A DNA stretch of 64,000 nt, taken from contig OZ035997.1 of assembly GCA_964035015.1 (NCBI GenBank), positions 80,504,489-80,568,488 on the forward strand, written 5' to 3'. The stretch comes from Corallium rubrum. Lineage: Eukaryota; Cnidaria; Anthozoa; Scleralcyonacea; Coralliidae. The notes under the pieces are model-generated. The model saw nothing but the letters and a program-made list of their open reading frames with translations. It was not told where the DNA came from and made no database searches. The translations under genes were made by a program, and so were the position numbers. This document shows, one piece after another, positions 29,542 through 64,000 of the stretch. Each line of letters starts with the position of its first letter. The stretch's first letter is position 1.

Positions 29542-32821
<3,280 letters not shown>

Positions 32822-44838: not shown

Positions 44839-45167
44839 TAATGGAAATGGTGACCCAACTTGTATTGCAGGTACATTTTAAGATTATAATGTTTACGCGT
44901 GCTTCTCCCGATGTATATCCACCTGATCCAAATATTTAAGTGTTTTAAGTGTTTTAAGTTTGCTGGAATAAATTATTTGAGATTAGATTCCTCTCTAGGG
45001 TGATTTGGTATTGTTTTTAAATGAATCGGTATTGAGTTGGAGGCAAATAACTTCAGCTTGCATGTAAATGCAGATTAAGTTTGTGATTGTTCTTGATATG
45101 GTTTGTAAGATATTTGTTTGTAATTAATGTCTTGAGATAAAATTTGAGCAAGTGTGGTCATATAAAG

Positions 45168-46274
45168 ATGTCCTGTTCAAAACGTTTTAAAGTTGGCAAA
45201 CAACATGAGAATACTTGGTCTCAACTACATCGTCGTCTGATTTCTATTCCCTTTTCCTACGAAGATATTTTTCCGAAAGATGTCTTCGACTTCATAAACA
45301 ATGAAGCGATATCAACAAGTTCTTGTATCGGCTACATTGTCCCTTGTCTATTAACTACCACCACATTCGTCGCAGGGATGAATAATTCGGTCATGGCGAT
45401 ATCCTGGGAACACAACGTGCCTTTTAATCTGTATACGATGGTTGTCGGTCCACCTACGACTGGAAAATCTCAAGCAATGAGAGAATGTGTAACGCAACCA
45501 CTAACTGCGGTACGGGAGAGTCATGGTCTAGGAAACTTTGTGGTTGAACGCTCGACTTCATTAGCCTTGGTTAAGTGTATTGCTGAGCAGAGAAAAGCTT
45601 TCTTGTGCTCTCCAGAAATTTATGACGTTCTCAACAAGCTCCTCAAGAGTGATGAGGAAAGTGGAACTGGGGGTGTGCAGTTGTTATGTGGGTTGTTTTC
45701 CGGAGAGCGAACATCGTTTCGGTATGTCACAGAATCAACAAGTGAAATCTCTTCAAATGTGCCTTTTTGTATATTGGGGTCCACGCAGGTTCCTTTTGCC
45801 GCTCGACTGATTTGCCGAATGGATCAAGGACAGGGGCTGTTAGACCGATTTCTGGTTTGGTTTCCCATTTGCTTTCGTCCGACACCGAAGGAAACAGAAA
45901 GTGCAATTGCAGTACTTGAAGACATCCCGCCGAAATGTTTTACTGACCTTTTTATTGAAATGTATAACTTGCACTTGAATAAAAAGGTCTTCGACCTGAG
46001 TGCGGGTGGGAAAGAAATGGTGGATTCTTTAAAAGAGGATTTCATCAAAACAGTAAATGAGGCGATAGCAGAAGGTATCCCTCCACCAAAGTCCAAGCGT
46101 ATTGACCTATTACAAAGAATATCTATCTGTTTCCATATTCTGACGCACACAATTAGCTCTGTCATTCGAGGTCGCAAGCCACGTGCTATGCCAAAAGAAG
46201 TAAGTCTTGATACAGTAAAGAAGGCATTATTACTGTTGGAGTATGTGGAACCGCAGAAGGAGATTGTAGTCGAT
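45168..46274 (+). CDS. DUF3987 P-loop protein, exon 1
   Basis: The ATG at 45168 (MSCSKRFKVG) follows an AT-rich 5' region. The exon reads a DUF3987-type domain. VVGPPTTGKSQAMRE is a Walker A. AEQRKAFLCSPEIYDVL, GGVQLLCGLFSGERTSFRYVT and NVPFCILGSTQV follow, and then GLLDRFLVWFP, the strongly conserved GLxDRFL patch. DUF3987 proteins are helicase/primase-associated ATPases in phages and mobile elements. In animals they are of unknown role. The frame is undamaged to a donor (GAT|GTTAGT). Confidence 0.65.
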
Positions 46275-46538
46275 GTTAGTATAAAAGTTGTTTTAATAGA
46301 TTTAGAATAATACGTTTACTTGCAAAGTACCTGCTCTCCCAACTATTAAATGTAGTCATATCAAATTACCACATGTATCAATTGTTGTATGACATGTGTA
46401 TCATTGTTATTGTGTATTACTAATCAGTCATACCTAAGTATGCGCTATGAAAAGAATACATGTATTGGAACGTATATCACAGGCGTATATTTTGGCCTAG
46501 TGGAGTCATAATTCTGCAATTATTCCAATTATTATTAG

Positions 46539-47539: not shown

Positions 47540-48860
47540 AATAATGAACGAGAAATTCAATCCCGTTAGAGGCAAAGCTCTAAGGAACTGCTTCGTGTCG
47601 AAAAAGAGAAAGATCTTGGTGTTTCCCTGACCAACAACCTCACCTGGGACTCGCATATAAATACCATCGTCGCTAAAGCTAACAAACTGCTAGGGCTACT
47701 GAAGAGAACTTGTCCCCTGTTGACGGACATCAAAGTTAGGCGGACGCTATACCTTACCCTTGTTAAGTCCCAGTTAAGCTACGCCACAGAGATATGGTCC
47801 CCAGCCAACACCAAACTCAAGTCTAAGGTTGAAAAGATCCAGAGAAGAGCCACCGCTTGGATTCTCAAATCCAAACAAGGAGAAATATCTTTAAACAAAC
47901 AAGGAGAAATATCTTTAAACAGAGGCTGGTAGCTCTTAAAGTGCTTATGCCACAAAATATTTTTTTTGACTTTTGAGAAGGACAAAAAGTTAGTTAATAG
48001 GTTGTTTAACATTTTTCGGTTTTCTCTTTTCATTCGCGAGATATGCGGCTCAAAACCTTGAAAAATTGGCTTTTAGCAAAAAATTGTCGCGCCCAGAAAA
48101 AAATGGAAAAGGGTCTGGGGCGACAGCCGTGTGACGTAGCTTAAGGGACGGAGGTTCGAATTCACATGTGAAGGAGTACTAAAAAGCTATTGAGAATAAT
48201 AATAAGTCCCTTAAGCTACGTCACACCACGCTCGTCCCAGACTCTTGTTGATACGCGACATTTTCACGAAAATTGCTGTTTAGAGCCGAATAACTAATTT
48301 TTAAAGAACCTATATCTTTGTTAAAGAACCTATTAACTAATTTTTTGTCCTCTACTCAAAAGTCAAAAAAAAATTTTTGTGGAATAAGCACTTTAACTTG
48401 CTACCTTTAAGTTATGACAGAGAAATTCAGGACTTGATATTTTTCTTTAAGGCTCTCTATGGACATACAGACCTGAATGTTCACAAATTTGTTTCTTTTG
48501 TAAACAATGGTCGCACTCGACTTAGTCAAAACCAAACCCTTACTCTTAAAGTTCCTCTATGTAAATCAAATACATTCCAAGCTTCTTACTTCAACCGCAT
48601 AGTCAAACTATGGAATTCAACCTGTAAAATACTCCCTCCACTAGTTTTTCTAGTCTTTCCTTTTTTAAAAGTTCCCTCAAAGAAATGTACTATAATTTAA
48701 GTTACTCAATTTTTCATGTAGATCTGCCGTGCACGTGGTCCTTCGTACGTGATTGCCCCTGTCATAGGTCGTAAACTCAGTTGGGTTTTTATTTCTTTTT
48801 TTTTATTTTTACGGGGAGTGCCCTGCATGGGACTTAGTGTCCCGTTCGCACTCTTCCTGT
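47540..48860 (+). mobile_element. LINE fragment (RT C-terminus) interrupted by a foldback MITE
   Basis: The left part reads EKDLGVSLTNNLTWDSHI, VRRTLYLTLVKSQLSYATEIW and IQRRATAWILK. A short in-frame duplication of GGAGAAATATCTTTAAACA (47878-47923) follows. The right part resumes at 48393 as LLPLSYDREIQDLIFFFKAL and NTFQASYFNRIVKLWN and then shifts frame. The sequence ends with a 3' UTR-like stretch. It is 5'-truncated and old. Confidence 0.7.
47940..48392. mobile_element. 453-bp foldback MITE with TTAA target site
   Basis: The ends AGTGCTTATGCCACAAAA and TTTTGTGGAATAAGCACT are inverted and the pairing extends about 70 bp. A second inverted pair, GTGTGACGTAGCTTAAGGGA with its complement, lies inside (about 48129 and 48212), so nearly the whole element can fold into a hairpin. 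TTAA flanks both sides (47936-47939, 48393-48396), and removing the element restores the LINE reading frame. It is probably Kolobok- or piggyBac-related. Confidence 0.8.
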
Positions 48861-48879
48861 TTGGGTTATAGTAGGTAAC

Positions 48880-49190
48880 CCCCCCATCCACCGCCGGAAG
48901 TGACGTCACGCTATGAACTGGAACTAAATATGTATTCAAAATGGCGGCGGCGACGGAAGTGACGTCACATCTGGGTACCCCTTATCTGGCGGAATTTTCC
49001 CGCCAAATGACGTCACGCTTTCATACCGGAAGTGAGGTGTGCGCACAGGCTGACGTCACAGGGGTGTGCGCACAGGCTGACGTCACAGGGGTGTGCGCAC
49101 ATGATGTGACGTCATTAGGGGTGTGCGCACAGATGTGATGTCATAGGGGTTTATCTGTTATTTGATTGGTTGGAGATAATTATAAATTAA
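48880..49190. promoter_or_regulatory. Dense CRE/ETS/E2F promoter-like block at the Polinton left end
   Basis: Six perfect TGACGTCA palindromes lie at 48901, 48960, 49008, 49051, 49078 and 49107, plus a variant near 49137. Two are in the composite GGAAGTGACGTCAC (ETS plus CRE). TTTTCCCGCCAAA at 48995-49007 fits an E2F site. AAAATGGCGGC at 48939 fits a YY1-type site. GTGTGCGCAC palindromes recur at 49036, 49063, 49090 and 49120, alternating with the CREs in a 27-30 bp repeat. A TATAAAT box follows at 49181, 73 bp before the GRF gene. Motif names come from known metazoan consensus; function is inferred. Confidence 0.6.
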
Positions 49191-49253
49191 GGAAACGAGT
49201 AATAGTTATTTATTCTGTTCATAGTTTTCACGAGGAGAACTTAATAAGATTAA

Positions 49254-49829
49254 ATGATGGAGTGTTTACATGGAGAACCTGCTTCTTGTTCGACAACGAA
49301 AAATGGTTCATTTTGGTTCTGTGGTCAAAAACCAAGCTGTAATTTCTTTTGCCCTGAGGACACAGGTTATCTGTTTGAAAAAGCCATAGTTGCCTGGAGA
49401 TCTACGGGACAGCCGCATCCGCGATGTAATGGACATCATAAGCTTGCAACGATGCGTGTGGTTAAAAATCTGATGAAAGAGAGTTACGGAAGACCGTATT
49501 TTGTGTGCTCTGACAAGAAGAATCCATGTTCCTTTTGAGTATGGGGTGATGTGGCACCAATGATGAGACCGACCTGTTATCATGGATTTCCGTGTGTGTC
49601 CCGAAAGGTGAAAAAGGAAACTATTAACAAGGACCGTATGTTCTTTCGTTGTCCTAACGACAAGGAGAGTTCGTGCAGGTTTTTTGAATGGGTTCCTGAA
49701 GAACGCTATGGATCGCTGCAACCTGTGAACTTTACTTTGCCTGGACAGTGCCAGCCAAAGATCGGCGAGGAGAACTACATTGAGAACTGCATTGACGATT
49801 TAACACGTGGTTTTCAGAACATTAATTAA
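49254..49829 (+). pseudogene. GRF zinc-finger protein of Polinton, in-frame TGA
   Basis: It starts at ATG 49254 and contains three GRF-type zinc-binding units of about 45-60 residues. The first has FWFCGQKPSCNFFCPED, the second YFVCSDKKNPCSF and VWGD, and the third CYHGFPCVSRKV and FFRCPNDKESSCRFFEWV. GRF fingers bind single-stranded DNA and occur in DNA repair and replication proteins. A TGA at 49536-49538 interrupts the second unit. The same frame continues to 49829, and GRF units normally have an aromatic residue here, so this looks like a nonsense mutation of a Trp codon. Confidence 0.75.
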
Positions 49830-49957: not shown

Positions 49958-50326
49958 ATGGAAGTGATTTTGGATGAGCTTCTTCAGAAAAATGACGTCG
50001 ACATTGATATGAGGACGTTATCACATCATATCAATTATTTGCTTGAACATCGCAAAACATTGTATGAACAAATGGCAACGCGTGTTCATCCCTACGATCT
50101 AACTATGTTTTTTCACGAAACGAACGTTATCAATTTTGGTCGTGCCATAGCTTACTTGACCTTAGTTTATGTGATGAATGACTCTTGCTCCGAGCACGTG
50201 ACGCATAGAGCTGTACAGTTGGTTGCTAAACCTCTTAAAAGCTTCGATTTCACAAAGTTTAAGATCGAAGAAGAAAGTTTTTTCCGTAGAATGATTTCTT
50301 TTGCTAAACGTATTTTTTCGTTATAA
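49958..50326 (+). CDS. Bcl-2-like protein of Polinton (putative apoptosis regulator)
   Basis: The ATG at 49958 gives 122 aa. The segment FFHETNVINFGRAIAYLTLV (about residues 50-70) matches the BH1 pattern of Bcl-2 proteins (short acidic loop, N-[WF]-G-R-x-x-A). It lies between amphipathic helices as in the Bcl-2 fold. A BH2 Trp pair is not seen and there is no clear C-terminal membrane anchor, only a basic amphipathic end. Adintoviruses have been reported, as I recall, to carry Bcl-2-like accessory genes. It would act by blocking host cell death. It stops just before the packaging ATPase gene. Confidence 0.5.
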   Translation: MEVILDELLQKNDVDIDMRTLSHHINYLLEHRKTLYEQMATRVHPYDLTMFFHETNVINFGRAIAYLTLVYVMNDSCSEHVTHRAVQLVAKPLKSFDFTKFKIEEESFFRRMISFAKRIFSL

Positions 50327-50370: not shown

Positions 50371-50628
50371 ATGGATGTACGGTTTAAAACACCTGCAAAT
50401 TTCTATATTTGTGGGCAAAGTCAAAGCGGGAAATCGTATTTGGTTCGCTTCATGTTGCGTCATTTAGAAGAACTGTTTTATCCTGTTCCGACCAAAGTAA
50501 TATACTGTTATGGAGAGTATCAAAAGGAATTTGACGAAGTGCCTATGCCGAACGTTGAACTGGTGGAAGGTTTTCCAAACGATCTATATAACTTAACAGA
50601 TGGATATGATAACTCTCTAGTCGTACTA
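50371..50628 (+). pseudogene. Polinton packaging ATPase (FtsK/HerA type), 5' part
   Basis: The ATG at 50371 gives MDVRFKTPANFYICGQSQSGKS, with the Walker A at about residues 14-22. The frame continues through a helical lid to the start of the Walker B strand, where a foreign element begins at 50629. A TATAAAA box lies at 50322. The protein family pumps the viral genome into capsids. Confidence 0.85.
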
Positions 50629-51012
50629 CACGGCCAGAAACGCACAAGTTGTAACAAGTCTGTTGCCGGCCTTGATACAACTTGCCATCAACAAGTCTGA
50701 ACCTGGATGCGTTCGCTCAGCTTGTTGTGGCTTGTCGTGACAAGTCTGCAACAAGTTGTCAACAGGCTTGTTGTAAGTTGTTGCGACAGACCTGCAGCAA
50801 TGCTGTCGTCAACAGGCTTGCTGCAAGTTGTCGTAACAGAGCCGTAGCAGTGCTGTTGCCAACAGGCTTGTTGCAAGATGCCGTAACAGAGCCGTAGCAA
50901 TGCTGTTGTCAACAACTTTGCTGCAAGCTTGCTGTGAACAAGCCGTAACAAGTCTGCAGTTGACAGCTTTCAACAAGGTTGATAAAACACGCGTTATTCT
51001 CGCGTTCATGCA

Positions 51013-51116
51013 GTGATTCTATCTGAGTTATTAGATTTCTCAAATATAGAAATAACGAAATTATCACACCGTGTGATACTTTCGTGATTTCTATACTTAA
51101 GAAACCTAATTCAGAT
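51013..51116. repeat. Imperfect palindrome inside the CACTA-like element
   Basis: About 50 bp (CTATCTGAGTTATTAGATTT and on) pairs with its reverse complement directly to the right, centred on CACACCGTGTG. It is a strong potential hairpin. Confidence 0.7.
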
Positions 51117-52880
51117 AGAAAATAAACAACTTAGATATATTATTAAAATTTACACAACTACAAACATCTATCAAAGCAATTTTATTTTACAGAAAACAAT
51201 TCAATACATTGCAAAAATTCAGTCCGCCGATGAAAGTGTAGTTCACTCACCACTTAAATGTTTTAGTACGTTCATGCAAAAATATATTTAACTGATTAAA
51301 CTCACCACTAAAGATATATGTAACAGATGATAGATAAATTAATGTTTGCCATAGAGATATTAATAATTGTATACCGCTTCTTTTTAAACGTTTGTACTTC
51401 TCAGCTTTAGTTTCACTCGTGGTTATAGTTTTCGTTGATAGTTCTTTTTCTTTACGTTGAGTGCTGGACGCCTGGACGAGCGGACAAGCTTAGTCCCCTT
51501 TTTAGCTGTATACACTTGCATGGATACTTGAGAGTAAATTAAAAATAGAAATAAACTGCCATTCCTGACACACTTGCCTTCGCTGTTTTATAAACGACTG
51601 TTTACATTTTTTCCTCAACACTGAAATGCAATCCCACTGACAACTTCTTCCAAACGGTGAACTTAACATGAAGCAGAGCCAAATTTCAATCACATGTCTC
51701 ACTTTATAACCGATAAAAAAGACTCTTGTTCGTGGAATTGTGAATGCCCGTCTGTTTCAACTTTCAAACTGTAAAAAATAAAATTTAGCCAACGGTCCAT
51801 GGTGACGCAAGTTTGTTTTCGTAATCTCATTCTCATTGGCTGGTGATTTAATTTTCTCGCATATGATTGGCTCTCTGAGCATCGGATGATGCAAGCCTCA
51901 TTACTTCCTGTTTTCCCCCTCGAAGCTTCGAGTTTATTTACAAGCTGTTCGAAAGAAACACTTTGAAACTCAAAGGTTTTTTGGACAAACAGAACTTGGC
52001 CCACAAAGATTAAACTGCAAATACAAACAGGGTCTGGAACAGATCAGCTACAGGCAGTTTTATATACGAATTTGAAAATCGCTTGAGAAAATCTTTGCCG
52101 TGAATTGCCGTGGCCATGGGAGACACAGTTTTTAAGGATATTTTGAGCTAAGTTCTTTTTTTGTGGTTATAAACCCTAAAATATGCCTTTTGTGAACTTG
52201 AACAAAAGATTGAAGTGATAAATATGTGTATTATGATCGTATTAACATTTGGCTAGCTTTGATAAATCGATATCTTTCAAAATTTTGCAAGATGAAATAG
52301 TGATGTCTCGACATGCCTGGCCGCTACGGCTGTCTTTGTGTGTTGTAAAATTTATGGTGCAGAAACCGACCAGAATAATGTCGTGTCTTTAATTCTTCTG
52401 AACATTTATAGTTTGAATGAATAGCAAAAACTATAGTTTAGCTGCGATTGTTTTTTATTATTGCTTTTTCACGGGTTTTTTCTTTGTTTCAAACACTTTT
52501 CTGTTAACGAAAAAACGTTTTGAATTTTTACCCACACAAGGACGTTTATTAAGTACTAAACTTGAAATAAACGTTTTCTCTCTCCGCTATAGTGAACCGT
52601 TATTATATTATGTTGTTCATAATGAACAGAAAATGTTTCTGTATACGGTATTTCAATGCAGTATTGATATAAAAAAGAAACGTGCTATCACAGGTTCGGG
52701 GAAAAAAACTCCTGTTACCACAACGAACTTGTGTCGGCAAATTGTCACGGTATCAGTAGAGCGGTTTCTCTTTTTATTTCAGCTTGTTGTGACAATCCAA
52801 GGACCGATTGTTTGTAACACGTCTGTCGCAGGTTGTTATCAGCTTAGTGCAGACTTGCAATAACAACTGGCACCAAGTCT

Positions 52881-53176
52881 GTTGGGACAAGTTGTAACAG
52901 CATTGTTGATTGCATCAGACTTGCTGCAATTTGTTTCATCGAGCCTGTTATTCTTTGTCATCAACAGGCTTGTTGCGGAATGCCAACAAATTGCTACGCC
53001 TCTGTGGGCGACAACTGGCAACAAGTCTGTTGGGACAAGTTGTAACAGCACTGTTGATTGCATCAGACTTGCTGCAATTTGTTTTATCAAGCCTGTTATT
53101 CTTTGTCATCAACAGGCTTGTTGCGGAATGTATCAACAAATTGCTACGGCTCTGTGGGCGACAAGTTGCAACAGGT
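52881..53176. repeat. 148-bp direct tandem duplication in the CACTA-like element
   Basis: The units 52881-53028 and 53029-53176 are nearly identical, both starting GTTGGGACAAGTTGTAACAG. The amplification is recent, because only a few differences are seen. Confidence 0.9.
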
Positions 53177-53297
53177 CTGTTGCCGCAGGCCTGTTAAAGC
53201 CTGATCGAGTCAACAGGCTTGCAGCAACTTGTTAACAACTTGCAGCAAACCTGCACATCCCGCAAATTGCAACAAGCCTGTGAGATTTCTGGCTGTG

Positions 53298-54994: not shown

Positions 54995-55504
54995 TTATTT
55001 TTCAATCAGTTTTTTACAACATTGATTAACATTTGAGTACTTTGTTAACAATACTCTAAAATGACTTTTAACAAACTGAGACACTTTCGCATCATTTAAC
55101 GTAGTATCGTTAGTAAATAACTGCACGATTTTATTCATGCTGTGGCCTCGTGCTCTATGACTAAGGTAAAATATGCAATACAGTCCACACACATCTGACC
55201 AATCACTTTGCAGTTTACGAGTGTTAAATTCCCATTTGTGAGACTTTAAAAAATCTCCAAACGAATCCTTATAGTAATGTGGTGATTGTCCGTAACTGTC
55301 AAAAAATTCTCCTTTCTGTTCCGATGAAAAGTAAAAGGCCACCCAATGCGTTCCAGGTTCGCTGCTCGGATCTGTGTTTGCGACAAATCCGCACGGATAT
55401 TTGTCAATCATTCGAGATAATTTGTCAGAAGGAAACACGCCGCAAAACTTCTTGCTTGTTATAGGATCTTGTTGTAATGCATGCATTATCTGAGCAGTGT
55501 TCAT
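54995..55504 (-). CDS. Adenain-like cysteine protease
   Basis: 169 aa, intact. The triad of the C5/Ulp1 fold is visible: His in GTHWVAFYF, Glu/Asp in GEFFDSYGQ and Cys in SDVCGLYCIFYL, preceded by the oxyanion Gln region KLQSDWSDV. Length and motif order match Polinton proteases that cut capsid precursors. The ATG abuts the stop of the capsid gene (TAAATG), indicating a tight cluster. Confidence 0.88.
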   Translation of the reverse strand: MNTAQIMHALQQDPITSKKFCGVFPSDKLSRMIDKYPCGFVANTDPSSEPGTHWVAFYFSSEQKGEFFDSYGQSPHYYKDSFGDFLKSHKWEFNTRKLQSDWSDVCGLYCIFYLSHRARGHSMNKIVQLFTNDTTLNDAKVSQFVKSHFRVLLTKYSNVNQCCKKLIEK

Positions 55505-56833
55505 TTAGCCAGAGTAATCGTAAATGACGTTCCTCTCAGAGTCGATCTGAATCAGATTTTCAAATTCTCCGTAACAGATGAGACTCACAGCTGCTGTAGG
55601 TGCGGTAGAGAACTTGATGTCAACTGCCAAATTTCCCCTTTGAACGGCATTAAAATGGGATGATGCCCCGCACATATCGGCGGTCAAATCGAAAGCATAG
55701 ATGGCGTACCCTTTTGGGAATTCCTCTCGCGATATATCGTTGCCGGCGTTGAGATACATTTTTCCTGTGCCTGAAAACAATGTGCTAAATGCTTCAACAA
55801 ATCTAGGGCTCACACCACAGGAAAGCTGTATCGGCTTAAACGGCATATCTTCTCCATTTACGGTTATTCCAATAGACGTCACGGTGAAATGCTTAAAGTT
55901 GTACGGATTCTTGGTGTATACCCCATTAAACGCCATACTATCGACAAAACCAAAGACAAACGATTTCGGTACAAGGCCATTAAAGAGGTTATCTTTTCTC
56001 AAAGAAGGATTTCCTGTTGGAACAATGAAACTCTTGCACTCAACGCGACGAATAGGGTAGATCGCTGGTCCTTTTTTCAATGCAATTTCATGAGCCATGG
56101 AAATGCTCGGACTCACTTTCACTTTGCGTATCTTGAGATAAGCATCGACCAGTTTCACTTTGTAATCGGGATTGGCCTCTGCGGACATCAGACAAAACGC
56201 ATCGCTACTTCGATTCAGAATAATTTTCAGGTCGACAAAGCTCAATAGGAGACGATCGGTCATAAATACATCGCTGAATATAGGGCCAGCCATTTCGACA
56301 ATTCCACCTAGTTTGTTAAACGCATATCTCGAATTAAGACCTGCGTTGGCGTTGCCACCTGCTAGGGTAGGATCAGAAACGTCCATTTTTCCTGCGGTAT
56401 CTTTGTAATACATGGCTGCGGTGAGTTGAGATTTCTTTGTCGCCGGACCATAGTTTAGGAGGGTTTCCAGATATGCTCGGTATGCGTAGGTTCCAGTAGC
56501 CTGCGTAACTTGCTTTTCTTTCAGAAAGACGTCGACTTGTTTGAACAGACTGTGTAGGAAATTGTTCACTATTCCAACCTTTTCGTCTGCGCCAAGATTT
56601 GTACCATCACCTTTTGTCACTTTTGCTCTCACCACAAGAATCGTTTTAGATAAATCAACATAATCTTCTGTGACCGGAGACAGAAACGTGATTGGACCAC
56701 CATCTGATACACTGGAAACAGGTTGATGATCGATCCAATGTCCTTTTTCTAAACTGATCTGTGTTGGAGGCAAAGAAAAGAGATCAAGTTCACTTTTTGT
56801 GCATTCTTGTGATTTCGAATGTACGAAATTCAT
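55505..56833 (-). CDS. Major capsid protein (double jelly-roll)
   Basis: 442 aa, intact. The N-terminus reads SELDLFSLPPTQISLEKGHW and SDGGPITFLSP, the typical start of animal Polinton capsids (annotated in databases as F54H12.2-like). YVDLSKTILVVRAKV, NNFLHSLFKQVDVFLKE and later GKMYLNAGND follow, with strand-rich sequence throughout. It assembles as the hexon-like shell. It starts 2 bp after the stop of the penton-like gene, so the cluster may be co-transcribed or read from separate promoters. Confidence 0.88.
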   Translation of the reverse strand: MNFVHSKSQECTKSELDLFSLPPTQISLEKGHWIDHQPVSSVSDGGPITFLSPVTEDYVDLSKTILVVRAKVTKGDGTNLGADEKVGIVNNFLHSLFKQVDVFLKEKQVTQATGTYAYRAYLETLLNYGPATKKSQLTAAMYYKDTAGKMDVSDPTLAGGNANAGLNSRYAFNKLGGIVEMAGPIFSDVFMTDRLLLSFVDLKIILNRSSDAFCLMSAEANPDYKVKLVDAYLKIRKVKVSPSISMAHEIALKKGPAIYPIRRVECKSFIVPTGNPSLRKDNLFNGLVPKSFVFGFVDSMAFNGVYTKNPYNFKHFTVTSIGITVNGEDMPFKPIQLSCGVSPRFVEAFSTLFSGTGKMYLNAGNDISREEFPKGYAIYAFDLTADMCGASSHFNAVQRGNLAVDIKFSTAPTAAVSLICYGEFENLIQIDSERNVIYDYSG

Positions 56834-58115: not shown

Positions 58116-59189
58116 TTAAATCTTATTTATTTCAGAAGCAGGTACCCACGAATTAAACTTGTTTGGGTACCCTAACCATTTTACAAGATATTGTACATTG
58201 TTACCTCTTCCACGTTTCTTCAGAATTTTTTCAACTTCGTAGACACCGTCCTGTTTAATGACTTTTTGCAATTCTTTATCGTAAAATGTTCCTTTCAGTT
58301 CCTCATCATCATAATCTTTGAGTTTATACACAGGAGGATCGCGTGGCACTTGTTTGCTTACAGTGAATATTTCTTTTGAGAAATTTGGTAAATAACCCTT
58401 TTCAAATTTCCGTTTGATTTTACTAATTCTTACTTGATCACCAATTTTAAATTTATACTTTACATTTTTCACATCTTTATGATCGTCGTACAAAATGTGC
58501 CATACTTTCTTTTCGTTTTCGACAGTAACATTTGCTGGCTTTGTTTTAATACTACGATGAACACTATGATTGTAAGAATACACTAAATCAGGCAGCATGT
58601 CAATGTATCGCATGGTTTTCTTGGATGTAAAGTATCGCCACATCTTTGTTTTCAACGTACGAATCAACCGTTCTACGATCGAGGCTTTCGTTTCGTTATA
58701 CGTGTTGTACAACTCTATGTCCTCCTCCTTCATCAATGCTTGAAAGTGTCTGTTGAAAAACTCAGTTCCTTGATCCGTCATAATTTTTTCAGGCTTGCGT
58801 CCAGAAGACAAAATGACTTTGAAAGCGTCAACCAGTGAAAGTCCCGTTTTATTTTTCAAAGGAACTACCCATGCATACTCTGAAAAGACATCAATGCAAA
58901 CAAGCAGATAGCGATAACCATCGTTAAACTTCTGCATGGATTGCATGTCTGCTAAATCCATTTGCCATTGTTGGTTGATACCGCCCACGATCACAAGGTT
59001 TCTTTTGAAATTCCGACGAGCAGGTTTATGTAAAGTGTACGTATCTTGTGACATCAACCATTCTTTAATTTGTTGACGACTCACTTTAAATTTTCCCTCC
59101 TTTTTTCCGTCGTCGTACAAACGATTCACTCCACCAAATCCCCCCGACCGTTTTGGATTGTAATAAACGCTAGACAAGTAATCGTCCAT
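58116..59189 (-). CDS. Polinton integrase with C-terminal chromodomain
   Basis: The ATG at 59189 (MDDYLSSVYYNP) gives 357 aa. The rve core carries WQMDLADM (first Asp), KIMTDQGTEF (second Asp) and, 35 residues on, SIVERLIRTLK (Glu). Conserved YNHSVHRSIKTKPA follows. The last 55 residues form a chromodomain (YEVEKILKKRG, QYLVKWLGYPNKFNSWVPA) with the aromatic cage residues Tyr, Trp and Trp. The enzyme inserts the linear genome into the host, and the chromodomain may guide it to modified histones. The frame is intact. Confidence 0.92.
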   Translation of the reverse strand: MDDYLSSVYYNPKRSGGFGGVNRLYDDGKKEGKFKVSRQQIKEWLMSQDTYTLHKPARRNFKRNLVIVGGINQQWQMDLADMQSMQKFNDGYRYLLVCIDVFSEYAWVVPLKNKTGLSLVDAFKVILSSGRKPEKIMTDQGTEFFNRHFQALMKEEDIELYNTYNETKASIVERLIRTLKTKMWRYFTSKKTMRYIDMLPDLVYSYNHSVHRSIKTKPANVTVENEKKVWHILYDDHKDVKNVKYKFKIGDQVRISKIKRKFEKGYLPNFSKEIFTVSKQVPRDPPVYKLKDYDDEELKGTFYDKELQKVIKQDGVYEVEKILKKRGRGNNVQYLVKWLGYPNKFNSWVPASEINKI

Positions 59190-59245
59190 GTTTACGCATT
59201 GCTGTCTCACATATAATGAAAGAATATCTCGAATCATAAATTGTT

Positions 59246-61021: not shown

Positions 61022-61690
61022 TGTTTTGCATTCATCAACAATGACTCGTTTGTTGTAAACAATACGATAGTCCTTTTTCATGCGCTTGGTTTCGATGTTT
61101 TTTTGTCTTTGTGTTTCTCGTTATGTTGAATGGGATATCCACTGACACATGTCCCTTGACATTACATTTTGCGTGAAGGTACACCAATGCACGTATAACA
61201 TCAAAGTTCACGTTTTGCCTCGCGGTGCAATTTAGTGTGATACCTCGTATCTTCGTTTCCACCTTGTTCGTGTTGGTGCGATAGCAATAATTCTTCGGTC
61301 TGCCAGAGATAAATGTAGTGATGTGATCCCCTTTCAATTCATCCGTTAATTCGCCGAGATACGGGCCTATCGGAGGTTCTGGTTCCCCCGGTTTGCTGAC
61401 GAATATGACCGAATCGGTATCGTAGTAGAGGACTCTTTCTTGTAGTTGATCCAACACATCGTAGAGTTTGAGACGCGCATAGGCTGTGGCGAAAGCAGCG
61501 ATGACCACGTTGGTTTTGGCGTTGGGCTCGATGAAATCCTCGTTGCTCTCATAATGGATCTCGATCACTTCATCACTCACCAGGTTGGCGTTGAGCACGT
61601 TGATCCCGTCCGAAGTCAAATAGTCAAAGTATACTTGCGGATCCTTAATCAACTCCACTTTGGTCATGTTGGCTCATTGAGCGAATTTGC
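61022..61690 (-). pseudogene. pPolB, last exon (palm motif C and C-terminus)
   Basis: It begins at an acceptor (CTTTTAG at 61691) in phase with the previous exon. It reads GKFAQ, a TGA at 61674-61676, then ANMTKVELI. After LYDVLDQLQERVLYYDTDSVIF (motif C, catalytic DTD) it continues GELTDELKGDHI and YCYRTNTNKVETKIRG. A shift in a run of seven A near 61097 moves to the frame with the natural end at about 61016. The TGA replaces a conserved Arg, a CpG-type change. Confidence 0.85.
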
Positions 61691-61766
61691 CTAAAAGATA
61701 TAAATATTAAGTGTTTAGATTAAAAAAAAATATTAGGCATTATGATGTTTACGTCATAATACTCAC
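61691..61766 (-). other. pPolB intron
   Basis: GTGAGT...TTTTAG, 76 bp. The Gly codon between WG and KF is split by it and the phase is kept. Confidence 0.8.
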
Positions 61767-62335
61767 CCCAAAATGAGTTCAGCATCAACTTTGCCAATGC
61801 ACGCAAACCAGGATTGTGTTCGATCTTGCTTCGATCTAATTGTATCCCCTCAACCTCTAGGTACTCATCGACATATTGCTGCTTTTGTTCCTCCGTTGTA
61901 CAGTTCTTCGGGTAACCACTCGCCTCCTGCTTGATCTTAAGGAAGGTGTTCACCTAATCTTTGAACAGCTCGTCCGATTGTTGACGGAAATGCCATACTT
62001 CGTGTAGTTGTAGGATTCGATACCCCTTCTCCAACGCTTTTTCCAACTCTACGCTACACCACGTTCCTTGGATAGCTCTTTCGTTATCGGAATGGGTACA
62101 GGGGGTCTGGTTACACGTATCTGCGCAGGATTTTCACAGAGGGAACATCAGCTTACCCTGGGTACGGTATGGTAGGACCGGATGGAAGAGACCTCGAGGA
62201 GGAAGCACTGTGCATTTGATCAAACCAAAATAGGCGGAGATATCGTCAAAGTTTTCGGTGATGATACGAGGATGACCGACGACTGCCCGAGTCATTTTGT
62301 TGCACCAAGGATAGAGACTGGTAAAATCGACGTAT
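61767..62335 (-). pseudogene. pPolB, exon with motif A and thumb region, frameshift and stop
   Basis: It opens YVDFTSLYPWCNKMTRAVVGHP (motif A, Asp plus SLYP). It then reads TVLPPRGLFHPVLPYRTQGKLMFPLC and, after a shift near 62140, CTHSDNERAIQGTW and GYRILQLHEVWHF. A TAG at 61954-61956 interrupts before VNTFLKIKQEASGYP, which is followed by LAKLMLNSFWG (motif B). It lies between two introns that keep phase. Confidence 0.85.
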
Positions 62336-62415
62336 CTGTAAGAAATGACGTCAAAAATTAGATTTGCTCTGACGTCCCTAAACCTAGTATCATCTTGTTA
62401 CAAAAATCATCGTAC
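62336..62415 (-). other. pPolB intron
   Basis: GTACGA...CTTACAG, 80 bp. It joins GEKIR to YVDFTSLYP, which is the expected order in protein-primed B polymerases. Confidence 0.8.
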
Positions 62416-62534
62416 CTTATCTTTTCACCATCTTTGCACTTGTGGAAGAGTTTCGTAACGTTAGTTCGCCCGCCATAGAAAGAATCACGAGGTACCAAAG
62501 GATCCACCATATATGAGTAATATTTGTTCATATT
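62416..62534 (-). pseudogene. pPolB, short exon before motif A
   Basis: It reads VDPLVPRDSFYGGRTNVTKLFHKC and GEKIR. The FYGGRTN motif precedes motif A in Polinton polymerases. The start of the exon is unclear because foreign DNA lies upstream. Confidence 0.7.
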
Positions 62535-62544
62535 AATTCAGAAA

Positions 62545-62850
62545 AAGCTCAATTTCAATGTTTTAGAGCGGAGATAGTGACCTGATATACAACCACTAGG
62601 TGTTGTATATGTGATACAACCACGTGTGGTTTGTATCAGATATACAACCTCCTTCACGGTCATGATTTCTTTTGTGTTTTCTTCATGAATTATTAATGAG
62701 TGTTTTAAAGTTATATACCGTAGTTATTGTACATAATGAACTTTGTTTTATTTCATTCTTACTTGTATATATTAAATAGTGTGACGCCCCTCGTGGAAAT
62801 CAGCTAATGTTGACGAGGCTAGCGTGTTTAAATAAAGTTTTACCTACCCT
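62545..62850 (+). mobile_element. LINE 3' end and small hairpins within the polymerase gene
   Basis: The plus strand ends TTTAAATAAAGTTTTACCTACCCTACC, a polyadenylation-like signal and ACCTA-type tail of the kind ending CR1-like LINEs. Just upstream a stretch near 62580-62660 has nested inverted repeats (GTTGTATATCAG, TGTATATGTGATACAACC). It separates two pPolB coding pieces that are contiguous in intact relatives. Confidence 0.5.
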
Positions 62851-62852
62851 AC

Positions 62853-63046
62853 CTAATTGTCGAAGTACCGTTTCATATCTTCATCTTGTTCCAATTCTCG
62901 CTTAATGTCACATTCCCATACTTCGACCACATTGAAACCTTGGTCCTTAAGGTATTGAATCTTTTCCACGGTAGTTTGATGTAAGTCATGCATCGTCTTA
63001 CCACTCACGTTATTGACGGTATCGCGCGCATAGTATTTCAGGCATC
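62853..63046 (-). pseudogene. pPolB, exon between exonuclease and polymerase parts
   Basis: It begins at an acceptor with a long T tract (TTTTTTTCAG at 63047) and reads CLKYYARDTVNN, LHQTTVEKIQYLKDQGF and VVEVWECDIKRELEQ to a stop at 62853. The stop is at the edge of the LINE-derived stretch and may not be natural. Confidence 0.75.
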
Positions 63047-63133
63047 CTGAAAAAAACAAAACAAAAAAAAAACACAATAAATCTTAAAATCAAACATTGA
63101 AAGGGTGAGAAACTTTGAAACGTGACAACTTAC
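63047..63133 (-). other. pPolB intron
   Basis: GTAAGT...TTTTTTCAG, 87 bp, between CFWHG and CLKYYAR. Confidence 0.75.
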
Positions 63134-64000
63134 CGTGCCAAAAGCAGCCATTAACTTCATAGGCTGTGTTAGTTTCTTCGTAATAACCATCCAGCAGATA
63201 ATTGCCAATACGTTTTTCACCAGCAGTGCGAGCATGTTGGATGTAGATGTCATTCTTCTCAGCCTTATACGAGAGCATTTTAGAGCCAAGATGGATTGCT
63301 TGTCTTTAGGACGATAACCGTGAGGAGGAATGATGGCAATGGTATTTTCTTGGAGATAATTCGTTCGAAACACGAGGTTGCATGCTGATGCAATCGTAAG
63401 ACATTTCTCGAACGGGTCGATATCTGTGACATCACGGAACAGTTCGCGGAACTCGAGGCAACAACGACGGAGAATATCGACATCGGAACGACAGTAAGTG
63501 AGGATTTCTTGTTGGAAGTCGAACACGTAGTTATTCTGTTTCAAATTGTTATGCCAACTCAGAAACTTTTCTTTCTCATCAGGACTCATTCCGTCAGGAT
63601 GGTAAAATGGACTCGGAGGTATGGGTCCAACATAGTTCTCATTTTCCTTTTTGTTGAAAAGGTGAGGGAAATAGCCTTTCGCGAGTTCATCGATACCAAA
63701 GGTTTTTGGAAAATCTGCGAGTCTCATCGGTATGAAGCTCAAAGAGTCGATGAATTTTATCTTGAACATCGGAACATTTAACGTAAGGATCTTGGCACCG
63801 CGCATGATGACTTCGGGAACTACACCGTTCTCGTGTAAGTATTGTTGAATGAAATACCCGTCGTAGCCTTGAAAATTGTGAGCCATTACGATACAGTTCG
63901 CATGTTCCTGTGTAAAGAGCCATTCGCAAAATTCATTTCTCGTGTTGTCTCCTTCGAATACCCATTCGTCACCGGCCTCGTTCTGAATCACGCACAAATT
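63134..64000 (-). pseudogene. pPolB, exonuclease domain, runs off the window
   Basis: The frame from the right edge shows proofreading motifs: NCIVMAHNFQGYDGYFIQQYL (ExoII) and YCRSDVDILRRCC (ExoIII). RLADFPKTFGI and KGYFPHLFN also fit Polinton polymerases. A shift near 63272 moves to the frame with IYIQHARTAGEKRIGNYLLDG and NTAYEVNGCFWHG, ending at a donor at 63134. The N-terminal part, including any terminal-protein-like region, lies beyond the window. Confidence 0.87.

Follow-up and report, generated by a model that had tools for sequence, protein, structure and literature searches.

The motif block and the element that carries it

The window analysed here is the whole 64,000-nt stretch of the Corallium rubrum genome, and this report concerns a Polinton whose left terminus lies in it at position 48870, beginning with AGTAGGTAAC. 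The element is 19,436 bp long, as calculated from its end coordinates, and its right end lies outside the 64-kb window. A dense block of sites of host transcription factor type makes up its left terminal inverted repeat (TIR) and the adjoining 150 bases. We suggest that this block is probably a terminal control region of the Polinton, in which an ETS site, alone or fused to a cAMP response element (CRE), lies near the end and is followed, at the left end, by an array, a CCAAT box and a TATA-like sequence before a gene for a GRF zinc-finger protein. The names of the factors (CRE, ETS, E2F, YY1 and AP-1) were assigned by consensus motifs. The features of the left end, in window positions, are as follows; F2 is a related family described below.

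48864..48869, no strand: left copy of the 6-bp target site duplication, GGTTAT; the right flank (L015) reads ATAACC, its reverse complement
48870..49038, plus strand: left TIR, starting with AGTAGGTAAC; the right copy, C1:80572627-80572793 on the minus strand, is 95% identical
48895..48908, plus strand: ETS-CRE composite CGGAAGTGACGTCA, 25 nt inside the terminus
48938..48948, plus strand: YY1-type site AAAATGGCGGC, unchanged in 6/6 ends with the window-type TIR
48954..48967, plus strand: second ETS-CRE composite CGGAAGTGACGTCA, exact match
48995..49004, plus strand: E2F-type site TTTTCCCGCC, unchanged in 6/6 ends with the window-type TIR
49008..49015, plus strand: CRE TGACGTCA, exact match
49027..49033, plus strand: third ETS core, CGGAAGT
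49036..49143, plus strand: array of 27-30 bp units with four copies of GTGCGCAC, CREs at 49051, 49078 and 49107, and a degenerate CRE at 49136
49165..49169, minus strand: CCAAT box (ATTGG on the plus strand), a single 5-mer, unenriched alone; F2 has the same order
49181..49187, plus strand: TATA-like TATAAAT; F2 relatives have TATATAAG or TATAAA at the corresponding place

The initial annotation had described a cluster of six exact TGACGTCA sites with ETS-CRE composites, an E2F-type site and a YY1-type site, and the motif positions confirm it. The six CREs start at 48901, 48960, 49008, 49051, 49078 and 49107, within 214 bp, and together with two exact ETS-CRE composites and the E2F-type and YY1-type sites they fall inside 48895-49143. 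The rest of the 64-kb window holds a single further copy, at 62346; shuffles of the whole window contained 0.69 copies on average and reached seven in 0/100 cases. The array was said to carry four CREs, of which three are exact; the fourth unit is degenerate and reads TGATGTCA. The accompanying GTGCGCAC starts at 49039, 49066, 49093 and 49123 (spacings of 27, 27 and 30) and is absent from the rest of the window. It matches the motif of no factor known to us.

The block was also compared with 2000 dinucleotide shuffles of 48870-49190. The observed counts of CRE (6), ETS (3), GTGCGCAC (4) and YY1 (1) were each matched in 0/2000 shuffles, though such counts overstate significance because the copies of a tandem repeat are not independent. 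The number of independent sites is smaller than the raw counts, and we distinguish at least four sequence contexts by eye. The single E2F-type site was reached in 24/2000 shuffles and the single CCAAT in 1331/2000, so the latter is not enriched. An origin of the block in flanking host DNA is ruled out by its location in the TIR and by the matching 6-bp duplications; it belongs to the Polinton, as had been proposed.

The genes of the element that lie within the window are listed below.

49254..49829, plus strand: GRF zinc-finger gene; two pieces searched separately gave E 9.9e-5 (below the Pfam cut-off) and E 7.6e-11
49958..50326, plus strand: putative Bcl-2-like protein, the second gene of the element, from fold and weak profile evidence only
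50373..50700, plus strand: candidate packaging-type ATPase, N-terminal part (P-loop), from weak Pfam matches below the cut-off
54995..55504, minus strand: adenovirus-type protease (Peptidase_C5, 22.8 bits, cut-off 21.3)
55505..56833, minus strand: major capsid protein candidate; named octocoral relatives are 69-79% identical
58116..59237, minus strand: rve integrase (51.1 bits) with a C-terminal chromodomain (45.6 bits), both above the cut-off
61035..64000, minus strand: PolB in several broken frames, continuing beyond the window edge; DNA_pol_B_2, E 1.1e-24 for 63041-63997

This gene set (integrase with chromodomain, C5 protease, PolB, capsid candidate, ATPase fragment and GRF) fits a Polinton, judging by sequence matches. 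A type B polymerase, a retrovirus-like integrase, an adenovirus-type protease and AG(T)-ended TIRs with a 6-bp duplication are all present. The capsid candidate has no Pfam match, and its structure model is of low confidence (pLDDT 52); its relatives are named F54H12.2-like, a name that we take to be linked to Polinton capsids, and among 120 listed of 2512 matches they include Paramuricea (79% identity), Dendronephthya (73%) and Xenia (69%). Several genes of the window copy are broken. The GRF gene is interrupted by an in-frame stop at 49536-49538, and the ATPase frame stops shortly before 50-bp and 148-bp tandem repeats (50700-53240). The PolB of an F2 relative gives a DNA_pol_B_2 match of E 7.9e-45. 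In those F2c and F3 copies that were read (L075, L077, L081), the frame nearest to the terminus encodes a relative of the Bcl-2-like protein.

ETS-CRE sites at Polinton ends across the genome

All family comparisons were made in one genome, the 474 Mb of Corallium rubrum. The 14-mer CGGAAGTGACGTCA occurs 272+264 = 536 times in it, and its backwards control 0+0 times. Among the first 100 listed sites there are 30 adjacent pairs 0.2-25 kb apart, 26 in +/- order and 3 in -/+ order; strand-shuffled controls gave a mean of 7.6 and a maximum of 17 +/- pairs. The +/- configuration takes in 59 of these 100 sites. The 26 pairs span 1.8-22 kb, and because 17 of them are only 2-5 kb apart, many of the elements must be non-autonomous.

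Twenty left sites picked by hand and 14 right partner ends were read individually. An AGTA terminus precedes CGGAAGTGACGTCA at 16/20 left sites and all 14 right partners, and the offset is exactly 26 nt at 14/20 and 11/14, respectively. The four left sites that have no AGTA terminus comprise an apparently mutated end (L087), a small palindrome (L095) and two of another nature (L089, L090). In five related ends the composite lies 23-26 nt from the terminus, depending on the length of a C-run, and in most of the remaining ends it lies at 26 nt. Of 17 element pairs compared, one has no terminus at one end, and 14 of the 16 others carry identical 6-bp duplications.

A search with 48860-49260 listed 56 matches from 40/385 candidates scored. 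A search with the integrase (110/1987 candidates scored, 112 matches listed) defined three families: 36 matches at 82% identity or more (F1, the family of the window element), 73 at 56-59% (F2) and two at 53% (F3), with one further short match at 75%. In the listed range on contig C1, F1 integrase copies have ETS-CRE at both ends in 6/8 cases, at one end in 1/8 and at neither in 1/8. A site of host-factor type lies at a near-fixed distance from both termini in most F1 ends read. The expectation that related Polintons share the block is borne out for its ETS-CRE part in F1 relatives; it fails for F2, where the exact composite was found in 0/8 integrase copies on C1. No terminus was recognised for the F1 copy at C52:4.77 Mb (L085, L086).

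Short elements of about 2-6 kb with Polinton-type ends and 6-bp duplications are numerous on C1 and other contigs (for example, C1:24258254-24263179). One of them has a C2H2 zinc-finger frame (L019 1822-1995; zf-H2C2_2, 42.9 bits, cut-off 40). Inverted ETS-CRE pairs about 60 bp apart were also seen, at C1:4208612/4208673, 59283959/59284020 and 73568653/73568713; the one such pair read, L095, is the small palindrome mentioned above, which has no Polinton terminus.

Exchange of modules in related families

The F2 ends keep the order of the window element and differ in their modules. In F2a an ETS site at offset 26 is joined by AP-1 (TGACTCA) units, five or six of them and most at 11-bp intervals, and beyond this array come ATTGG, TATATAAG and then PolB. 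The F2b ends have CAAAGGGATGCCGCCTCATTAAATATTCA at the offset-26 place, four to seven AP-1 units, ATTGG, TATATAAG and then GRF or PolB. A 29-mer is found in F2c, followed by two or three TACGTCA half-sites and a Bcl-2-like gene; the F2d ends carry a form of it with one change, then a GTGTGACGCCCG array of seven to ten TGACG half-sites, TATAAA and GRF. Two TACGTCA half-sites occur in F2e, together with ETS at offset 26, and also in F2f, which has neither ETS nor the 29-mer. The left ends of F3 have 27-bp repeats with CGGAAA cores, four in 300 bases, a count reached in 5/2000 shuffles.

These modules are widespread. The AP-1 array 25-mer GCGTGACTCACGCATGACTCACGCA occurs 71+73 times genome-wide (control 0+0) and the 29-mer 380+355 times (controls 0). 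Among the places listed, adjacent pairs on C1 are in +/- order in 12/12 cases for the 25-mer and 45/46 for the 29-mer. At C13:9.60-9.61 Mb, a single insertion combines a left end of the 29-mer type (L067) with a right end of the ETS type (L068), and the duplication TATATC flanks it on both sides; this is an exchange of modules between ends.

Fourteen F2 end regions were fetched, and the terminus is present in nine (L067, L068, L070, L071, L072, L074, L075, L077, L079). L069 shows no terminus, L073 and L076 begin within the TIR, and L078 and L080 have no TIR marker; nor was a terminus recognised at the right ends of F3 (L082, L084). The leader of an F2 PolB (L064 5200-5612) resembles, by eye, an intron-containing 5' untranslated region, with GTAAG ... 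TTGACAG right before the ATG.

Conservation of the sites and the variable outer segment

Nine independent ends were recovered via the inner sequence, and the ETS core lay outside the BLAST match. In these ends, positions 1-5 are invariant, positions 6-26 differ at 0.34 per site and the ETS core (27-32) at 0.037; positions 41-72 differ at 0.014, a figure lowered by the way in which the ends were found.

The outer 26 nt differ strongly from element to element. Where each end had a 26-nt segment (14 pairs), the two segments were identical in 11, had one mismatch in one and eight mismatches in two, and different elements differed by 7.4 positions on average (range 1-16). By eye, none of the few short elements fetched had exactly the same 26 nt as a full-length one, so no match between a helper and a satellite was seen there. 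The pairs L093/L110 and L100/L114 each have a common target duplication and different end segments.

The E2F-type and YY1-type sites are confined to six ends of three insertions with one TIR type, and were found in 0/46 other Polinton-type ends, examined over up to 300 bases each. The single E2F-type site is therefore not conserved across the family. The initial annotation had proposed that the provirus also responds to cell-cycle factors; this part, which depended on one E2F-type and one YY1-type site, is not upheld. An LxCxE-type Rb-binding motif was found in 0/14 open reading frames (ORFs) of the element up to position 64000.

Three scans of IMG/VR gave no relative of the element. The integrase found one weak locus (L031, 27% over 105 residues), the terminus pattern only L032, with phage-like frames by eye and 0/15 window proteins matched, and the capsid alignment none.

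A proposed terminal control region and its alternatives

We propose the following arrangement. Outermost is a terminal segment of 25-26 nt (AGTA...). Directly inside it, at a near-fixed distance from both ends, an ETS-CRE composite would be bound by host proteins of the ETS and CREB/ATF types. At the left end, an expandable array of CRE/GTGCGCAC units, followed by CCAAT and TATA, would serve as an early promoter for GRF. In related Polintons of this genome the order is kept and the modules are exchanged (CRE, AP-1, TGACG half-sites or ETS alone), which would make each lineage answer to a host signal of its own. The terminal ETS-CRE may also assist protein-primed replication, much as NF-I does from its site (nt 23-36) in the origin of adenovirus 2. 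Four features lead us to propose this second role: the site occurs at each end, its distance from the terminus is nearly fixed, short elements have it too, and so does a right end that has no adjoining inward gene. Such elements may thus use host control proteins to switch on or to copy themselves.

The promoter part of this proposal agrees with what had been annotated, up to a point. The clustered motifs stand upstream of the TATA-like sequence and the first gene, the layout of an early enhancer-promoter as far as sequence goes, and arrays with CCAAT and TATA before GRF or PolB look like early promoters. The array could even be that and nothing more, the right copy being a by-product of TIRs kept alike in replication; we regard this as a real possibility, though not the probable one. 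It would account for CCAAT, TATA and the start of GRF coming after the left block in an order that recurs in F2, and for the agreement of the two ends of one element in most of their outer 26 nt (11/14 identical). However, a promoter does not need an ETS(-CRE) site at a near-fixed 26 nt from the end, and this site behaves like part of the end, not of a promoter. Six CREs are likewise present at the right end of this element, and the extra ones among them are not copies of the left array. Because the block is present at both ends, and because the nearest right-end ORF (L015 544-1038) points toward the TIR, outwards, with no TATA after it by eye, we think that it is not only a promoter; a promoter is plausible for the left end and not evident for the right, where no inward gene adjoins.

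It is also conceivable that nothing binds these sites, the ends having descended from few founders as old TIR sequence with tandem duplications. Most of the sites read do belong to copies of few families, the arrays are tandem duplications, and decay has turned some CREs into TGATGTCA or TGACATCA. Passive inheritance is hard to reconcile, however, with the low divergence of the ETS core in nine independent ends (0.037 vs 0.34 at positions 6-26), with the fact that almost every end type tested retains, in different sequence, either a TGAC-type or an ETS-type unit, or with the recurring order of array, CCAAT, TATA and gene, and we consider it unlikely. Equally unlikely, in our judgement, is that the element's own proteins (the integrase, a GRF or C2H2 zinc-finger protein, or PolB with terminal protein) bind the sites and that the likeness to host motifs is superficial. 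The ends must be recognised by integrase and polymerase, the short element L019 carries a zinc-finger frame, and GTGCGCAC resembles the site of no factor that we can name; but the sites match, exactly and over their full length, the palindromes and composites of familiar host factors, two bZIP classes among them, and past the first five bases, which are invariant, the outermost segment is the variable part, although an integrase or polymerase site is expected there.

Several observations weigh against a terminal control region. No single site is universal, since a bZIP site is absent from the F3 ends tested and the terminal CGGAAGT from the F2b, F2c, F2d, F2f and F3 ends tested. The window-type TIR, read in six ends of three insertions, has variation in 3/73 motif columns vs 13/99 other columns, so motif columns vary only somewhat less than the rest. 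High motif counts need not mean selection, because the array copies arose by duplication. For the right end of this element a promoter role is not evident, and 2/16 element pairs have no matching duplication. The case as a whole is built on sequence, with F1 and F2 compared in a single genome. We nevertheless favour the terminal control region.

A bolder and rather doubtful extension is that the ends are interchangeable signal-input cassettes. Behind a short terminal core, an ETS or bZIP module would make replication as well as early transcription depend on a host pathway (CREB/ATF, or AP-1/stress), lineages would swap modules between ends, and the hypervariable outer 26-nt segment would be a replication tag. 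If this is true, Polintons that share a genome, together with their short non-autonomous relatives, would be roused by different host cues.

We know of no settled account of how Polinton activity is controlled in animal genomes. Dense, recurring host-type sites at a near-fixed place offer a testable answer, namely which factors and which signals may act, and would provide a mechanistic link between Polintons and the origins and early promoters of adenoviruses. CRE, ETS and AP-1 sites are dispersed through the host genome by hundreds of such ends, and these are a possible source of new regulatory elements for the host.

Relation to known systems

The immediate-early enhancers of herpesviruses contain repeated CRE and AP-1 units. 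Like the arrays described here, they place tandem CRE repeats upstream of an early gene in variable copy number; the Polinton arrays differ in lying in or next to terminal repeats, in having a cnidarian host, and in an array type that varies by family. For adenovirus, elements of the inverted terminal repeat (ITR) reportedly promote bidirectional transcription, as the title of a 1991 paper by Hatfield and Hearing has it. The adenovirus ITR origin shares with the Polinton ends a protein-primed linear genome, TIRs and a host transcription factor site just inside the terminal core, and in both the presence of sites varies between lineages. In the origin of adenovirus 2 the NF-I site spans nt 23-36 (PMC6410123), as against an ETS-CRE from about nt 26-27 in the Polinton. 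The Polinton ends differ in having ETS/CREB-type instead of NF-I/Oct-1 sites, expandable arrays, an integrated provirus with integrase, and a variable outer segment.

Vertebrate Polintons or Mavericks have TIRs of 46-1447 bp with (AG)n or (AGT)n ends and a 6-bp duplication, and share with the present element TIRs, duplication, PolB, integrase and capsid genes (PMC8097293). The text of that paper has 0 occurrences of 'transcription factor' and of 'binding site', and neither 'promoter' passage concerns the TIR. Adintoviruses, treated alongside small DNA tumour viruses in a source available in part (PMC11071296), are a further likeness, and 'promoter' and 'transcription factor' occur 0 times in that text; unlike them, the Polinton here is an integrated multi-copy family. 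The available parts of PMC2871265, PMC9004415, PMC6146688, PMC4357725 and PMC6431247 hold nothing bearing directly on transcription factor sites in Polinton TIRs. The view that such sites had not been described before stands for the 8-20 matches listed per search, most subscription journals being outside their scope.

Other features of the window

A LINE-like (long interspersed nuclear element) remnant occupies 47570-48700, with the Polinton just beyond it. It is interrupted by a hairpin element (47936-48396), inside which lies another hairpin, of 41 bp, with TGACGTAGCTTAAGGGAC. The stretch 29545-32821 is a 3.3-kb microsatellite built from units of the CTTG/CTTT/CCTT type. The ORF at 45144-46310 belongs to DUF3987 (PF13148, as assigned to its relatives) and comes perhaps from another mobile element; its named relatives are mainly anthozoans, plus one sea cucumber.
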